In this document: positions 39,766-54,884 of the stretch, in pieces
Layout of the letters: every line of letters starts with the position of its first letter
Numbering within the stretch: position 1 is the first letter of the stretch
Assembly (NCBI RefSeq): GCF_000009265.1
Contig: NC_008380.1
Coordinates: 2,795,501 to 2,859,500 of the forward strand
From: Rhizobium johnstonii 3841
GTDB taxonomy: Bacteria; Pseudomonadota; Alphaproteobacteria; Rhizobiales; Rhizobiaceae
Reading direction: 5' to 3'
DNA length: 64,000 bases
Notes under the pieces: model-generated
The model's input: only the letters and a program-made list of their open reading frames with translations
Database searches by the model: none
What the model was told of the DNA's origin: nothing
Translations under genes and position numbers: made by a program

Positions 39766-40690
<925 letters not shown>

Positions 40691-42530: not shown

Positions 42531-44405
42531 ATGTTCCAATTTATGAAAACGATGCCTCTGACAGCCAAGCTGGCGGCGATTATCGTTGCCGTCAATCTCT
42601 GCGGCATTTCCGCTTTCGCCACCTATACCTGGATGTACGAAACCCGGGCATTGATCGATGGCGCCAAGGCGAACTGGTCCAAGGATGCGGAGCAGTTTGC
42701 ATCTCTGGCCGCCGGCGGCGTGAAATGGGGGAAGGCGAACGCCGTTCGAGAGGCTTATTCGCTCTACCGCGACGACCCCTCGCTCGATCTTGTGCAGTTT
42801 GCCGCATTCAACGCCGAACCTGCCGCAGTCGATACATGGACACGCGACGGCATCAACGGTTTGCCCACACCGGCAGACCTGGCGAAGAGCCTTAGTGCGA
42901 AGCCGGAAAAAACGACGATTGATGACAGTGGAATATCCGCTGGCGCGGTCACGATCATCGCGCCGCTTCCGCTGGACAAGTCAGGCAAGGCCGCCGGTTA
43001 CATCGTCACGAATTGGTCTGTCGAAAAAATCGCTGCCGAAGTCAGGCAGAAGGTTCTCATTTCGCTGCTCACGCAGTCCGTGATCACCGCCATGGCCGTC
43101 GTTGCCTTCCTTCTCGCCATGCGCAGCCTGGTCGGCCGGCCCATCAGGGTGATCAGCGAACGAATCAGCGCGTTGCAGAAAGGCGATTTGGCCTCTCCTG
43201 TTACCTACAAGGAAAACGGCGACGAGATCGGCTTTCTGGCGCGCGCGTTGGAAGTTTTCCGTCATGAAGCGATCGCGAAGGTCGAAAGAGAGCAGGCCGC
43301 TGCCGAGCAGAGCGCTTCGCTCGACGCCGAACGGGCGCGCAACGCATTGTTCACGGAAGAGGCCAGCAACACCCAGCGGCTGGTCATGACCGCTCTTGCA
43401 AACTCACTGGAAAAGCTTGCCGCAGGCGACTTCTCGATACACCTGGCCGATCTCGGTCCTGAATTCGATAAATTGCGGCAGGATTTCAACAACATGGTCG
43501 AAGCGGTCGCGGCTGCGCTGACAGAGATCAAGACTGCCTCGGTCGCGGTCGAAGGCGGGTCGAGCGAGCTGGCATCCTCCGCCGATCAACTCGCCAGGCG
43601 GACCGAGCAGCAGGCGGCAGCATTGGAACAGACCGCCGCGGCACTGGATGAGGTGACTACCACGGTCAGAACATCGTCGCAGCGAGCCGAAAATGCCGGC
43701 AAGCTGGTCGAGGAAACCAAGCGGAGCGCTCATGTCTCGGCAACGGTGGTGCGTGATGCAATCGGAGCGATGGACCGGATTCAGACCTCGTCGAGTCAGA
43801 TCGGCCGCATCATCGGCGTCATCGACGAAATCGCGTTCCAGACAAACCTACTGGCGCTGAATGCCGGCGTCGAAGCCGCTCGCGCCGGCGAGGCCGGCAA
43901 GGGTTTTGCGGTTGTCGCGCAGGAAGTGCGTGAACTGGCCCAGCGGTCTGCAAATGCGGCAAAGGAAATCAAGAACCTGATCAACGTATCCGGCCAGGAA
44001 GTTGCCGCAGGCGTCGGGCTGGTGAACGAAACCGGCGATGCCCTGCTGAAGATCGAGGAGCAGATCAACCGCATCAGCGACAGTATCGCTTCCATCGTCC
44101 AGTCCTACCGCGAACAGGCGACGGGTCTGCAAGAAATCAACGGCGCGATCAACCAGATGGATCAGGCGACGCAGCAGAACGCGGCAATGGTCGAGGAAAC
44201 GAACGCGGCCTGCCAGGAACTGCTGCAGCAGGGACGCCTTCTGCAGGACTCGGCCGGCAGGTTCGTCGTCGGCGCGTCTTCAGCCAGCCAGCCCAGACCC
44301 ATGCAACCCGCCCGCCAATCTCGTCCCGAGCCCAGAGCCTTCGTGCAGCGGCATGCAGGAAATGCCGCCGTCGCCGCTGCTCCCGGTGCCTGGGAGGAGT
44401 TCTAA
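42531..44405 (+). CDS. Methyl-accepting chemotaxis protein
   Basis: 624 residues. Membrane helix about 10-32, periplasmic sensor domain about 33-175, second helix about 178-203 (ITAMAVVAFLLAMRSLVG), HAMP, then a methylation/signalling helix bundle. The hairpin tip is DEIAFQTNLLALNAGVEAARAGEAGKGFAVVAQEVRELAQRS. The extreme C-terminus ends GAWEEF, matching the xWxxF tether for CheR/CheB. The sensor domain is not one I can name. It is followed after 58 bases by a secreted protein gene, so the two may be one unit. Confidence 0.93.
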   Translation: MFQFMKTMPLTAKLAAIIVAVNLCGISAFATYTWMYETRALIDGAKANWSKDAEQFASLAAGGVKWGKANAVREAYSLYRDDPSLDLVQFAAFNAEPAAVDTWTRDGINGLPTPADLAKSLSAKPEKTTIDDSGISAGAVTIIAPLPLDKSGKAAGYIVTNWSVEKIAAEVRQKVLISLLTQSVITAMAVVAFLLAMRSLVGRPIRVISERISALQKGDLASPVTYKENGDEIGFLARALEVFRHEAIAKVEREQAAAEQSASLDAERARNALFTEEASNTQRLVMTALANSLEKLAAGDFSIHLADLGPEFDKLRQDFNNMVEAVAAALTEIKTASVAVEGGSSELASSADQLARRTEQQAAALEQTAAALDEVTTTVRTSSQRAENAGKLVEETKRSAHVSATVVRDAIGAMDRIQTSSSQIGRIIGVIDEIAFQTNLLALNAGVEAARAGEAGKGFAVVAQEVRELAQRSANAAKEIKNLINVSGQEVAAGVGLVNETGDALLKIEEQINRISDSIASIVQSYREQATGLQEINGAINQMDQATQQNAAMVEETNAACQELLQQGRLLQDSAGRFVVGASSASQPRPMQPARQSRPEPRAFVQRHAGNAAVAAAPGAWEEF

Positions 44406-44463
44406 CGTCATCCTCGTTCGACAAGCTTATGCCGCAGCAACCCATAATCAGGAAGGAAACACT

Positions 44464-45045
44464 ATGAAGAAAATCGTGCCCGCATTTCTTTTGGCCTGCA
44501 CCGCATTTGCCGTGCCCATGGGCGCATCCATGGCACAGGATGCCAAGCTTGCCCCGATCTTCGACTACGTGAAGAGCGACGTAACGCCCTGGCTCAACGA
44601 CCCCGCCATCATCGAGGCTATCAAGGCGCAGGACGCTACGAACGCCAATCTGAGCGAGGCCGATATCGACGCCCTCGACAAGAAGTGGCGCGCCGAAGTC
44701 GATGGCTCCGACCACTCGATGATCGACGGCGTGCTCAACAACGCCCTGTCGAAATTCCTTCAGTCAAAGAAGGAAGCCTCCGGCGGCAAGATCACCGAGA
44801 TCTTCGTCATGGATGCAAAGGGCCTGAATGTCGGCCAAAGCGACGTCACATCCGACTACTGGCAGGGCGACGAGGGCAAGTTCCAGAAGTCCTTCGGAGC
44901 CGGCAAGGACGCCGTCTTCGTCGATGAGATCGAAAAGGATGAGTCGACCCAGACGCTGCAGTCGCAGGCAAGCGTCACGATATCAGACGACAAGGGAACA
45001 CCGATCGGCGCCATCACCGTCGGTGTCAACGTCGACGCCCTGTAA
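44464..45045 (+). CDS. Secreted Cache/PDC-like protein, probable chemoreceptor partner
   Basis: 193 residues. ATG 44464 follows a strong AGGAAGGAA. Signal peptide: KKIVPAFLLACTAFAVPMGASMA with cleavage after MA-Q. The mature part has the look of a single Cache/PDC fold: ITEIFVMDAKGLNVGQSDVTSDYWQGDEGKFQ then VSVTISDDKGTPIGAITVGVNVD-like strands. Similar stretches occur inside receptor sensor domains; here the domain is free in the periplasm. Inference: it binds a ligand and presents it to the chemoreceptor encoded just upstream. Confidence 0.65.
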   Translation: MKKIVPAFLLACTAFAVPMGASMAQDAKLAPIFDYVKSDVTPWLNDPAIIEAIKAQDATNANLSEADIDALDKKWRAEVDGSDHSMIDGVLNNALSKFLQSKKEASGGKITEIFVMDAKGLNVGQSDVTSDYWQGDEGKFQKSFGAGKDAVFVDEIEKDESTQTLQSQASVTISDDKGTPIGAITVGVNVDAL

Positions 45046-45222: not shown

Positions 45223-45843
45223 TTGCGCCATATCACTTTGTCAGTGCTTCTGAATTTGGCTCTGATAGCCTCCGCCAACGCTGGCGAAAACATTTCCGGC
45301 GTTTGGCGAGACTTGTTTACACGGTGCCGAGTTGCAGTAGAAACGGGCAAAGACTTCGATGCAATGGGATTACGCGACTTGGGAGAAAGCCTGAGGATCG
45401 CAGCGCCGCCGACGATGGCCGGATCTACCAAGGCTATCATGCCCGGCTACGACGTGGCCGAACAGCGTTGGGGAATTCCAGGGGATCGTTTTGTCGTGGT
45501 CGAAACGGAGTATCCACCGCATGGCGGCAAAACAAGACGTTCCTGCAATCTCGAACTTGCTCCACAGGCGAAGCCAATCTCTGCTGACGAAGAGAGTCTC
45601 CTGAGAGCGGCTTTTCTTGCCGAACGCGATAAACTCCTTGATGGACGCTATGAGCACTGGAACCCCGACCCCATATTTTCCACCAATCTTGGTATTCGGC
45701 TGGCAGGGAACAATGTGAATGGCTGCCGTGTAGTCTCTCTCCTGTTCATCGACACCCAATCCAACTTCCCGTCATTTCTTCAAACGGGCTCTGGTGAGCA
45801 AGACGGAACCTGTGGTGGAGCACCACGCCTAATACATCCATAA
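45223..45843 (+). CDS. Hypothetical secreted protein
   Basis: 206 residues from TTG 45223, chosen because AAGGAAA lies about nine bases upstream and a Sec signal (RHITLSVLLNLALIASANA) follows directly. The mature region has four cysteines, a GYDVAEQRWGIPGDRFVVVET stretch and no family I recognise. Codon use is a little less GC-rich than in neighbours. It stands alone; upstream is the chemoreceptor pair, downstream the aroG leader. The role is unknown. Confidence 0.55.
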   Translation: MRHITLSVLLNLALIASANAGENISGVWRDLFTRCRVAVETGKDFDAMGLRDLGESLRIAAPPTMAGSTKAIMPGYDVAEQRWGIPGDRFVVVETEYPPHGGKTRRSCNLELAPQAKPISADEESLLRAAFLAERDKLLDGRYEHWNPDPIFSTNLGIRLAGNNVNGCRVVSLLFIDTQSNFPSFLQTGSGEQDGTCGGAPRLIHP

Positions 45844-45984
45844 AGCGCAAGAGACGGTATGTCGTTTGACCCAAGTTGCGCAGCCGCTCCTCATCTAGTT
45901 CACCGCGCTCTCTGTGGCGCGTTCTCGATTTCATCTCCGTTGCACCTTCCGCAAAAGCACCAGCTTCCAGACAGAAAATTCTGC

Positions 45985-46013
45985 GTGACAACGCGCGGCA
46001 GTGACACTACATA
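45985..46013 (+). promoter_or_regulatory. Sigma-70-type promoter of the aroG leader
   Basis: GTGACA at 45985-45990 and TACATA at 46008-46013 with a 17-base spacer. The predicted start site falls at about 46019-46020, exactly on the leader ATG, so the leader transcript would be leaderless. The rest of the 45846-46019 gap shows nothing else recognisable. Confidence 0.6.
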
Positions 46014-46019
46014 CGCCTC

Positions 46020-46094
46020 ATGTCGATCACATCAATCTACGCCTCGCGATTTTATTGGTACCGCTGCTTACAGCGGATGCGGGTCCATGCGTAA
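46020..46094 (+). CDS. Aromatic leader peptide of the class I DAHP synthase gene
   Basis: A 24-codon reading frame, ATG to TAA, with consecutive Phe-Tyr-Trp-Tyr codons (TTT TAT TGG TAC at 46050-46061) and an earlier Tyr at 46038. Four aromatic codons in a row, directly upstream of the first enzyme of aromatic synthesis, is the hallmark of ribosome-mediated attenuation. No Shine-Dalgarno is visible and the predicted transcription start coincides with the ATG, as in the leaderless trpL of Sinorhizobium. Too short for ordinary gene finders. Confidence 0.78.
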   Translation: MSITSIYASRFYWYRCLQRMRVHA

Positions 46095-46151
46095 CTGAAT
46101 TCGACGCGACGACAACCCGAACAGCCGCTAGTCTACCTGGCGGCTTTTTTG
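46061..46151 (+). promoter_or_regulatory. Attenuator: pause hairpin, antiterminator arm and terminator
   Basis: Hairpin 1 is CCGCTG-CTTA-CAGCGG at 46061-46076, starting at the last base of the second Tyr codon of the aromatic run. Terminator is AGCCGC (46123-46128) with GCGGCT (46140-46145) and then six T. The AGCGG arm of hairpin 1 can instead pair with CCGCT at 46125-46129, which would disrupt the terminator. A ribosome stalled at the aromatic codons would mask the first arm and favour this antiterminator. The stop-to-terminator layout fits the classical trp model. Confidence 0.75.
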
Positions 46152-46185
46152 TTCCGCGCGGGTATGACCAAACAGGAGCCATACC

Positions 46186-47247
46186 GTGTCTGATACCATT
46201 GACGATCTGCGTATCGTCGAAATTACCCCCCTGACCAAGCCTGCCGATATCATCGCGGAAATTCCCCGCAATGCTGATGTCAGTAAGACCGTGACCAGCA
46301 ATCGCGATGCGATCCACCAAATTCTTCGGGGCGAAGACGATCGCCTGATCGTCGTCATCGGCCCCTGCTCGATCCATGATCCCGTTGCCGCCAGGGACTA
46401 TGCCGCTCGGCTCACGGAACAGCGGCAGCGCTTCGCCGGCGATCTCGAGATCGTCATGCGCGTCTATTTCGAAAAGCCCCGCACCACCGTCGGCTGGAAG
46501 GGTCTGATGAACGACCCGCATCTCGACGGCAGCTACCGCATTGAGGAAGGCTTGCGCATCGCCAGGCGTCTGCTGCTCGACATCAATGCGATGGGCCTTC
46601 CCGCCGGCGTCGAATTCCTCGACACGATCACGCCGCAGTACATCGCCGACCTCGTCAGTTGGGGCGCGATCGGCGCGCGCACGACCGAAAGCCAGATCCA
46701 TCGCCAGCTCGCCTCCGGCCTCTCCTGCCCGATCGGCTTCAAGAACGGCACCGACGGCGGCGTCCGCGTTGCGCTGGATGCCATCCTCGCCGCCTCGCAG
46801 CCGCATCACTTCCCGGCGGTAACGAAGGACGGCCAAGCGGCCATCGCCTCGACGACAGGCAATGAGGATTGCCACATCATCCTGCGCGGTGGCAAGCGGC
46901 CGAGCTATGAAGCTGCCGACGTCGAAGCGGTGACCGGCGAAGCCGTCAAGCTTGGCGTCGCCCCGCGCATCCTCATCGATGCCAGCCACGCCAACAGCGG
47001 CAAGGACCCGATGAACCAGCCGCTCGTCGTCAAATCCGTCGCCGCACAGATTGCCGCCGGAAACAGCGACATCAAGGGCATGATGATCGAAAGCAACCTC
47101 GTCGCCGGCCGCCAGGATCTCGTTCCCGGCAAACCGCTGGTCTACGGCCAGTCCATCACCGACGGTTGCATCGACTGGGAGATGTCGGTCGCAGTGCTGG
47201 AAGACCTGGCAAAATCCGCCCGCGAGCGCCGCCGGACCCGCGCTTAA
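46186..47247 (+). CDS. aroG: DAHP synthase, class I (AroG/F/H type)
   Basis: 353 residues from GTG 46186 with CAGGAGCC upstream. Class I signature: LIVVIGPCSIHDP, YFEKPRTTVGWKGLMNDPHLDGS, and DASHANSGKDP, with Cys, His and Glu metal ligands visible. It joins phosphoenolpyruvate and erythrose 4-phosphate in the first step of aromatic amino acid synthesis. Control by the upstream aromatic attenuator is inferred. The stop overlaps that of the convergent TolB-like gene by four bases (TTAA). Confidence 0.95.
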   Translation: MSDTIDDLRIVEITPLTKPADIIAEIPRNADVSKTVTSNRDAIHQILRGEDDRLIVVIGPCSIHDPVAARDYAARLTEQRQRFAGDLEIVMRVYFEKPRTTVGWKGLMNDPHLDGSYRIEEGLRIARRLLLDINAMGLPAGVEFLDTITPQYIADLVSWGAIGARTTESQIHRQLASGLSCPIGFKNGTDGGVRVALDAILAASQPHHFPAVTKDGQAAIASTTGNEDCHIILRGGKRPSYEAADVEAVTGEAVKLGVAPRILIDASHANSGKDPMNQPLVVKSVAAQIAAGNSDIKGMMIESNLVAGRQDLVPGKPLVYGQSITDGCIDWEMSVAVLEDLAKSARERRRTRA

Positions 47248-53290: not shown

Positions 53291-54664
53291 TCAGCCGTTG
53301 GCGACCATCCGCTTTTCGTCGCGGCCGCCCTTCATGCGCTCGGCAAGCAGGAAGGCGAGTTCGAGCGCCTGGTCGGCGTTGAGGCGCGGATCGCAATGAG
53401 TGTGGTAGCGGTCCTGCAGGTCTTCCGCGGAGACCGCGCGGGCGCCGCCGGTGCACTCGGTCACGTCCTTGCCGGTCATCTCGATATGAATGCCGCCGGG
53501 ATGCGAGCCTTCGGCGCGGTGGATCTGGAAGAAGCTTTCGACTTCCGACAGGATCCGCTCGAAGGGACGGGTCTTGTAGTTGTTGAGCGTGATCGTGTTG
53601 CCGTGCATCGGATCGCAGGACCAGACGACCTTGCGGCCCTCGCGCTCGACGGCGCGAATGAGCTTCGGCAGGCTGTCGGCGACCTTCTCATGGCCGAAGC
53701 GGCAGATCAGCGTCAGGCGCCCGGCCTCGTTGGCAGGATTCAGGATGTCGATCAGTTGCAGCAGGTCGTCGGCCTGCAGCGACGGGCCGCATTTCAGGCC
53801 GATCGGGTTCTTGATGCCGCGACAATATTCGACATGCGCATGGTCGGCCTGACGTGTACGGTCGCCGATCCAGATCATGTGGCCCGACGTTGCATACCAA
53901 TCGCCCGACGTGGAATCGACGCGGGTCAGCGCCTCCTCATAACCGAGCAGCAGCGCCTCATGGCTGGTGAAGAAATCGGTCTCGCGCAGCGCCGGCTGGT
54001 TTTCCGAGGTGATGCCGATCGCCTTCATGAAATCCATGGTCTCGCTGATGCGGTCGGCGAGCTTGCGGTAGCGCTCGCCCTGCGGGCTGTCCTTGACGAA
54101 GCCGAGCATCCACTGATGTACGTTTTCGAGATTGGCGTAGCCGCCCATCGCGAAGGCGCGCAGAAGGTTCAGCGTCGCAGCCGACTGGCGATAGGCCATG
54201 GCCTGGCGTTCCGGGTTCGGAATGCGCGACTCCTCTGTGAACTCGATGCCGTTGATGATGTCGCCGCGATAGGCCGGCAGCGTCACGTCGCCCTGCTTCT
54301 CGACATTCGACGAACGCGGCTTGGCGAACTGGCCGGCGATGCGGCCGACCTTGACGACCGGCAGCTGCGCACCGAAGGTCAGCACCACGGCCATCTGCAG
54401 GAAGGCGCGGAAGAAGTCGCGGATATTGTCGGCGCCGTGTTCGGCGAAGCTCTCGGCGCAGTCGCCGCCCTGCAGCAGGAAACCGTTGCCTTCGGCGACA
54501 TTGGCGAGATGCTTCTTCAGGCGGCGCGCTTCACCTGCAAAGACAAGCGGCGGATAGCTGGCGAGCGTGGCTTCCGTTGCCGCCAAAGCGGCTGCGTCGG
54601 GATATTCGGGAACCTGCAGGATCGGTTTTTGCCGCCAGCTGCTCGGGGTCCAATTGTCTGCCAT
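53291..54664 (-). CDS. DAHP synthase, class II (plant-like)
   Basis: 457 residues from ATG 54664; a GTG three codons earlier (54673) is also possible. Class II signature: [67 protein letters not shown], and [12 protein letters not shown], with Cys, His and Glu metal ligands. It catalyses the same reaction as the class I enzyme at 46186 but is unrelated in sequence. Having both classes lets the cell regulate the aromatic pathway in two ways. No attenuator is visible upstream. Confidence 0.95.
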
Positions 54665-54884
54665 CTCACTCACCTGTTCTCACATCCATACCTCAGGATG
54701 CCCTCAATATGCGGCGGCTTATAGACCTTTAGGTCAGGCTTGCAAAGGCCATTCGCCGACTGCTTGTCGCCTCGCCGCCGCCGCCCGCCGCTCTCTAGTT
54801 AAACCAGCATATACCATGTCGATTTTCCCATATTTTAGACTTTCAATGTAGAACCGGAGAGAGTTTCAACTTCGGGGACACGGC

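Follow-up and report, generated by a model that had tools for sequence, protein, structure and literature searches.

Discussion of the first shikimate pathway step usually centres on repressors and on feedback inhibition. Proteobacterial attenuators were reportedly surveyed in 2004 by Vitreschak and colleagues, and Neshat 2014 is said to be the original paper on the aroR leader, which precedes the DAHP synthase gene aroF of Corynebacterium glutamicum. As described in excerpts of three papers (PMC11802643, PMC4046766, PMC3890552), the aroR leader encodes a Phe-Tyr-Phe peptide and transcription goes up under Phe shortage; the supply of Tyr is reported to have no influence there. An excerpt of PMC8632094 says that attenuation of DAHP synthase has been proposed in E. 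coli, and it contains a predicted motif from Acholeplasma, uORFC-13-1, which is a uORF upstream of aroF. Shewanella aroF and aroH are listed for proposed attenuation in part of PMC2659441. The trpL leader of Sinorhizobium meliloti (rnTrpL, with its peptide peTrpL) is a leaderless, translated attenuator with consecutive Trp codons, which controls trpE(G) and has shown functions in trans (parts of PMC7298713 and PMC10117765).

We analysed a window of 64,000 nucleotides from Rhizobium johnstonii 3841 (contig NC_008380.1, positions 2,795,501 to 2,859,500), in which a short reading frame with a run of aromatic codons precedes a class I DAHP synthase gene. Like aroR of C. glutamicum, it is a short aromatic leader peptide before a DAHP synthase gene. 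Unlike the rhizobial leader, aroR comes from another phylum; the rhizobial run is a mixture of Phe and Tyr with an optional Trp. The proposed controls of aroF/aroH in E. coli and Shewanella are also placed before DAHP synthase. The Acholeplasma motif has 24 examples, from that genus and from environmental sequences, and has a ribosome-binding site. Like trpL of S. meliloti, which belongs to the same bacterial family, the rhizobial leader is predicted to be a translated and leaderless attenuator, but it has DAHP synthase downstream, uses Phe and Tyr codons and has no known function in trans; the trpL hallmark of consecutive Trp codons before trpE is absent from it. Like the proteobacterial trpL, pheL, ilvB and his leaders, which serve other genes with other control codons, it would follow the 1:2, 2:3 and 3:4 switching logic (in part from excerpts of PMC7298713 and PMC2659441, otherwise general background). 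With a probability of about 0.92, we consider the leader at 46020-46150 to be a ribosome-mediated transcription attenuator of the class I DAHP synthase.

As shown in Table 1, the promoter hexamers, the 24-codon frame, the hairpin, the terminator and the alternative pairing that an earlier note on this DNA had described were each located. The proposal of that note, a leader peptide and attenuator controlling DAHP synthase, was supported by both comparison and folding.

Table 1. Elements of the putative attenuator and DAHP synthase genes in the window
Feature	Position	Strand	Description and basis
-35 element of leader promoter, GTGACA	45985-45990	+	predicted; sequence and comparison
-10 element, TACATA	46008-46013	+	predicted; 17 bases after GTGACA, 6 before ATG
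Leader frame, MSITSIYASRFYWYRCLQRMRVHA	46020-46094	+	24 codons, TAA stop; transcription start predicted at ATG
Control codons TTT TAT TGG TAC (Phe Tyr Trp Tyr)	46050-46061	+	sequence
Region 1, CCGCTG, 5' arm of hairpin 1:2	46061-46066	+	folding, Rhizobiaceae pairing
Region 2, CAGCGG, 3' arm of 1:2 and 5' arm of antiterminator	46071-46076	+	folding, comparison
Inner antiterminator, CGGGT, pairs with 46115-46119	46080-46084	+	fold, pair counts
Inner antiterminator, ACCCG, pairs with 46080-46084	46115-46119	+	fold, pair counts
Region 3, AGCCGCTAG, terminator 5' arm	46123-46131	+	folding, comparison, terminator scan
Alternative pairing, AGCGG (region 2) with CCGCT (region 3)	46072-46076 with 46125-46129	+	sequence
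Region 4, CTGGCGGCT, terminator 3' arm	46137-46145	+	folding, comparison
Terminator T run, six T	46145-46150	+	sequence, terminator scan
Shine-Dalgarno-like AGGAG of DAHP synthase gene	46174-46178	+	sequence
Class I DAHP synthase, 353 aa, GTG start	46186-47247	+	TIGR00034 E 4.2e-155 (above its cut-off); PF00793 E 6.5e-91
Class II DAHP synthase, context only, outside the switch	53291-54673	-	PF01474 E 2.2e-212 at 53342-54652; no aromatic leader upstream

The enzyme encoded downstream of the leader is of the AroF/G/H type according to its profile matches. The terminated RNA is predicted to be about 131 nt long, with its end near 46150. The terminator at 46123-46150 was the sole one in the region 45800-46260 (9 pairs; shuffles mean 0.3, sd 0.7). 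The 132-nt strand folded at -40.9 kcal/mol (z -2.04), and 6 of 200 shuffles were equally good; taken alone, the full-strand folding energy is a modest signal. Pfam and NCBIfam scans of four leader peptides gave no match, although peptides so short may escape profiles. No leader family turned up when Rfam 15 was searched with the window and with 45950-46250; for the leader stretch there was just an RNAI match, of 13.6 bits against a gathering score of 47 (E 4).

Several other features surround the leader. A chemoreceptor gene upstream of it ends at 44405, and a 230-residue frame on the + strand at 44353-45045 has no Pfam or NCBIfam match. The only Rfam match of the window at the gathering threshold is a cobalamin riboswitch (RF00174, 116 bits) at 40495-40682 on the - strand. 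Some 6 kb separates the class I from the class II DAHP synthase gene, and the two are on opposite strands.

At 170 of 197 class I DAHP synthase loci we found an ATG frame that contains an aromatic run and precedes a T-run hairpin of the form CCGC...GCGG; 153 of these leaders were distinct. The loci were not chosen at random. They consisted of 137 best matches, 40 picks from the phylum and 20 further ones from the order. The best matches came from the own genome and 60 relatives (30), from 397 genomes of the order (27) and from named loci (80), and include some genomes twice, under two collections. The 40 phylum loci, from 38 genomes, were hand-picked for diversity among the matches listed, at least 225 of 398 genomes having matched. 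The leader was present in 132 of the 137 best matches (L001-L137), 18 of the 40 phylum picks and all 20 order picks. Because this sample favours close relatives of the window gene, 18/40, albeit from hand-picked loci, is the fairer figure for the phylum. Sixty of the 397 order genomes had a match; 52 were examined and all 52 had the leader, while the remaining eight include one with 26% identity (G260). One leader (L127) was missed by a ranking and was caught when a terminator was also required.

The 27 class I loci without a leader were four named ones (L087, L090, L100, L113), a same-genus locus (L026) and 22 of the 40 phylum picks. The L026 DAHP synthase is 72% identical, and no aromatic leader was found within 900 bases of it.

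Such counts bear on the possibility that the terminator belongs to an upstream transcript and that the aromatic frame is a chance reading frame. Frames or terminators are common singly, and the + strand frames at 44353-45042 and 45223-45840, without Pfam or NCBIfam matches, lie between 44405 and the leader. However, frame, aromatic run and terminator occurred together at the 170 loci mentioned above, and a generic detector of the frame and terminator pair, blind to the hairpin sequence, succeeded at 169 of 197 loci compared with 8 of 3,940 dinucleotide shuffles. When four aromatics in six codons were required, the figures were 135/197 and 0/3,940. We give a chance frame almost no credence.

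The same generic detector found nothing upstream of class II DAHP synthases (0 of 29 loci with upstream DNA; L228, which ends at the gene, was excluded). One class II locus (L207) has a long upstream frame with three aromatics, but without a terminator. Searched with a covariance model built on the Rhizobiaceae leader, 7 of 199 family genomes gave a match, one each, under filters that lose weak matches. All seven matches stood immediately before a class I DAHP synthase, a result that speaks to specificity and not to prevalence. No second copy of the leader was found in the own genome, where the nine other matches were short (15-40 bases, best E 0.509).

Judging by record titles, leaders were found in Rhizobium, Neorhizobium (RFY[WS]YR), Bradyrhizobium (MITVATSYFWYFSYDSSLAAGGSRSI), Devosia, Kaistia and Methylocapsa. 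They were also found in Massilia, Herbaspirillum, Collimonas (e.g. MSFARAYFFFYFSYSSPTAVKSGKRS), Undibacterium, Noviherbaspirillum and Limnobacter, which we take to be betaproteobacteria, and four (L163, L165, L170, L174) came from other families of the phylum. The leader is much wider than the rhizobia and not confined to them. A locus titled Frankia sp. RB7 (L121) has a Bradyrhizobium-type DAHP synthase and leader, and its title may be wrong.

The control codons were compared among these leaders. In the 46 Rhizobiaceae leaders, TTT TAT at codons 11-12 was invariant and codon 14 was Tyr in 43 and Phe in 3. At codon 13 (window 46056-46058), 30 leaders had Ser, 13 had Trp and 3 had Tyr; the codon toggles between a Trp form, TGG, and a Ser form, TCG, which is AGC in Neorhizobium. 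A DAHP synthase gene tree built by a quick method had at least five exchanges of Trp and Ser at codon 13, and at least two of these exchanges were forced by the starred branches. Counted anywhere in the peptide, Phe was present in 153/153 distinct leaders, Tyr in 152/153 and Trp in 102/153.

The TGG at codon 13 in 3841 and the Trp in about two thirds of the distinct leaders would fit an attenuator that senses mainly Trp, of the trpL kind. Against it stand the almost universal Phe and Tyr, the Ser that prevails at codon 13 in the Rhizobiaceae and the repeated Trp/Ser changes on the quick tree, and we find a mainly Trp-sensing leader quite improbable. Sensing of Phe and Tyr would be the constant property of the attenuator, with Trp as an option. 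The earlier note had the locus sensing Phe, Tyr and Trp together. Its Phe and Tyr part agrees with the constant codons; as the Trp codon is variable, joint sensing of all three fits the 3841 sequence and is not a conserved property.

Biased choice of synonymous codons is a known theme in attenuators (excerpt of PMC1183508). We counted codons in the 115 leaders that had the gene among L001-L137, leaving out L138 and later ones. TTT made up 219 of 304 Phe codons in the leaders and 54 of 636 in the downstream DAHP synthases, of which the initial 1,020 bases were counted; in 33 representatives the values were 79/116 and 26/204. For Tyr, the full set had no bias towards TAT (165/317 leader and 338/672 gene codons), and the representatives had a small shift (46/74 and 85/183). 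Since there is presumably a single tRNA for Phe here, slower wobble reading or a constraint on the RNA are possible reasons for the preference for TTT.

The region in front of the leader ATG has a fixed arrangement. In 106 of the 153 distinct leaders, a [GTA][TC]GACA hexamer has its first base exactly 35 or 36 bases 5' of the ATG, and in all 106 a TA-initial hexamer follows exactly 17 bases after it (TATATG in 35, TAGAGA in 20, TACATA in 15, and others). This second hexamer sits 6 or 7 bases before the ATG, and the bases between differ among clades. A Shine-Dalgarno-like word precedes the ATG in just 9/153. A strict scan for the sigma-70 consensus found no promoter (shuffles mean 0.5), so the promoter call rests on comparison among leaders. 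We infer a leaderless message, with transcription beginning on the A of the leader ATG or on a neighbouring base. The leaderless start suggested earlier was thus supported indirectly, by the fixed promoter spacing and the few Shine-Dalgarno-like words. We limit it to the alphaproteobacteria because the upstream sequences of the Massilia and Herbaspirillum types look different. L089, L109, L122, L128 and similar Massilia-type leaders have a common TATAGTC about 25-35 bases before the ATG, which suggests a start with a short untranslated stretch, unlike that of the alphaproteobacteria. According to excerpts, 192 transcription start sites of Bradyrhizobium japonicum lie exactly on start codons (PMC4842269), and Sinorhizobium rnTrpL is itself a leaderless message (PMC10117765).

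In the window, the energies were -9.9 kcal/mol for hairpin 1:2, -15.5 for the terminator and -18.5 for the antiterminator, in which 2:3 is lengthened by CGGGT/ACCCG. A stalled ribosome was modelled by masking everything to 13 bases beyond the start of the codon on which it stalls, an assumed footprint size. With the mask on codon 12 or 13, 2:3 was the best fold before region 4 exists. When the stall was at Arg15, one codon beyond the run, most of region 2 was covered and the 2:3 fold was lost. With region 4 added, equilibrium folding of the masked RNA preferred the terminator in each stalled state tried (-25.4 kcal/mol at codons 12-14). This result counts against the model, in which readthrough would require an early and lasting 2:3.

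Pairing was also compared among the 46 Rhizobiaceae leaders. Hairpin 1:2 was paired in 98.2% of cells, with two pairs having compensatory changes, and terminator 3:4 in 99.8%, with one pair changed on both sides. Pairing 2:3 was kept in 89.8% with an invariant core; it had no covariation, its score being reached by 230 of 500 shuffles, because the core never varies.

For comparison across clades, we used 49 representatives less than 85% alike. A GCGG core after the control codons, within the frame, was present in 46 of the 49 compared with 2,585 of 4,900 shuffles; these 46 were anchored on it, and L103, L139 and L140, which lack it, were dropped. The terminator pair beside the core was A-U in 26 and G-C in 20, and thus paired in 46/46 (shuffled mean 34.7; 0 of 5,000 shuffles reached it). 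A second terminator pair was paired in 40 against 32.2 in shuffles (0/5,000), and three others had no useful variation or were not above shuffles. The 2:3 pair beside the core was kept in 41/46 against 38.6 shuffled (55/5,000) and another in 32 against 28.3 (124/5,000); three more were not above shuffles (20 vs 18.7, 17 vs 15.0 and 8 vs 8.2). Covariation support for 2:3 is weak or absent.

When the modelled ribosome was put on the middle control codon, before region 4 was made, region 3 paired upstream in 49/49 representatives compared with 1,829 of 2,450 shuffles. Taken individually, this stalled-fold test gave p <= 0.05 in 29/49, with p 0.06 for the window leader. Region 3 of the free RNA also paired upstream, with a probability of 0.5 or more, in 24/49. 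In a duplex test, 2:3 reached p <= 0.05 in 22/49 (window leader p 0.18). A duplex-energy search for region 1 over the whole frame gave p <= 0.05 in 8/49 and was uninformative outside the Rhizobiaceae. The terminator and region 2 are general, and a clear 1:2 hairpin could be demonstrated in the Rhizobiaceae only. In the anchored representatives the frame ends 8-27 bases past the region 2 core, and outside the Rhizobiaceae a finishing ribosome may cover region 2 in place of the 1:2 hairpin.

A hairpin near a start codon could also control translation instead of termination, or be part of a metabolite-binding RNA. However, in the 170 leaders a T run follows the 3' hairpin, which is a condition of that count itself, and the T run here ends 35 bases before the start codon of the DAHP synthase gene. 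No Rfam family matches, and conservation follows the frame and the aromatic codons. We rate the chance of such a mechanism as very slight.

Our model of attenuation is as follows. RNA polymerase would begin at the A of the leader ATG or a base adjacent to it, and the ribosome would load on the very end of the message. When charged tRNA for Phe or Tyr is short, the ribosome would stall on TTT TAT TGG TAC and cover region 1; where codon 13 is TGG, as in 3841, a shortage of charged Trp tRNA would have the same effect. With region 1 covered, 2:3 would pair before region 4 is made, the terminator would come too late, and transcription would run on into the class I DAHP synthase. When the amino acids are plentiful, the ribosome would reach the stop codon, and either 1:2 would form or region 2 would be covered. 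In both cases 3:4 would pair and transcription would end at about 46150.

The earlier note suggested a second role for the terminated transcript, namely that the 131-nt leaderless RNA, the 24-residue peptide or both act in trans besides the cis role. The architecture is like that of rnTrpL, being predicted as leaderless, terminated and translated, and rnTrpL and peTrpL of S. meliloti act in trans (excerpts of PMC7298713 and PMC10117765). However, codons 3-6 vary freely in the Rhizobiaceae (I/F/T/N, T/A/S/N, S/Y/H/C and A/I/V/T), which argues against a conserved peptide function, and a good part of the rest is control codons or paired stretches, conserved without needing a trans role. The Rhizobiaceae leaders gave no sign of conservation of the peptide as such. 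The DNA of the 22 Bradyrhizobium-type leaders is almost invariant, and for these a constraint on the peptide and one on the RNA look alike. Nothing found here speaks for a role in trans, and we consider a dual-function RNA unlikely. We hold equally doubtful a broader scheme, in which a single family of leaders, of ancient origin and in alphaproteobacteria at least leaderless, has gated the aromatic pathway since before the split of alpha- and betaproteobacteria, with Phe/Tyr constant, Trp often gained and lost, and a trans job in rhizobia for the 131-nt RNA like that of rnTrpL.

We found no account of the alpha- and betaproteobacterial DAHP synthase leader in the literature searched, which covered few subscription papers. 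The DAHP synthase gene is unmentioned in excerpts of a paper on Rhizobium etli small RNAs (PMC2881028) and of one on Bradyrhizobium start sites (PMC4842269). The earlier note knew of no described case in rhizobia, and the literature searched yielded none either; attenuation of DAHP synthase has been reported from Corynebacterium and put forward for E. coli, Shewanella and Acholeplasma. The proposed mechanism of the leader is ordinary; what is new is a widespread, uncatalogued, probable attenuator of DAHP synthase in proteobacteria.

A class II DAHP synthase was found in 60 of 61 genomes and a class I enzyme in 30 of 61, the own genome included. The class II enzyme would supply basal aromatics, and the class I enzyme would be called up by aromatic starvation. 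An RNA switch that reads the charging of Phe and Tyr tRNAs, and sometimes that of Trp, would accompany one type of DAHP synthase in alpha- and betaproteobacteria, while the other type, class II, was without such a switch in the 29 loci examined. The leader gives a ready annotation for a small, overlooked frame in many genomes, and the Trp/Ser toggle at codon 13 is a tractable natural series and a natural test of Trp sensing. It also leads to a simple prediction of how rhizobia may divide their aromatic supply between two isozymes.
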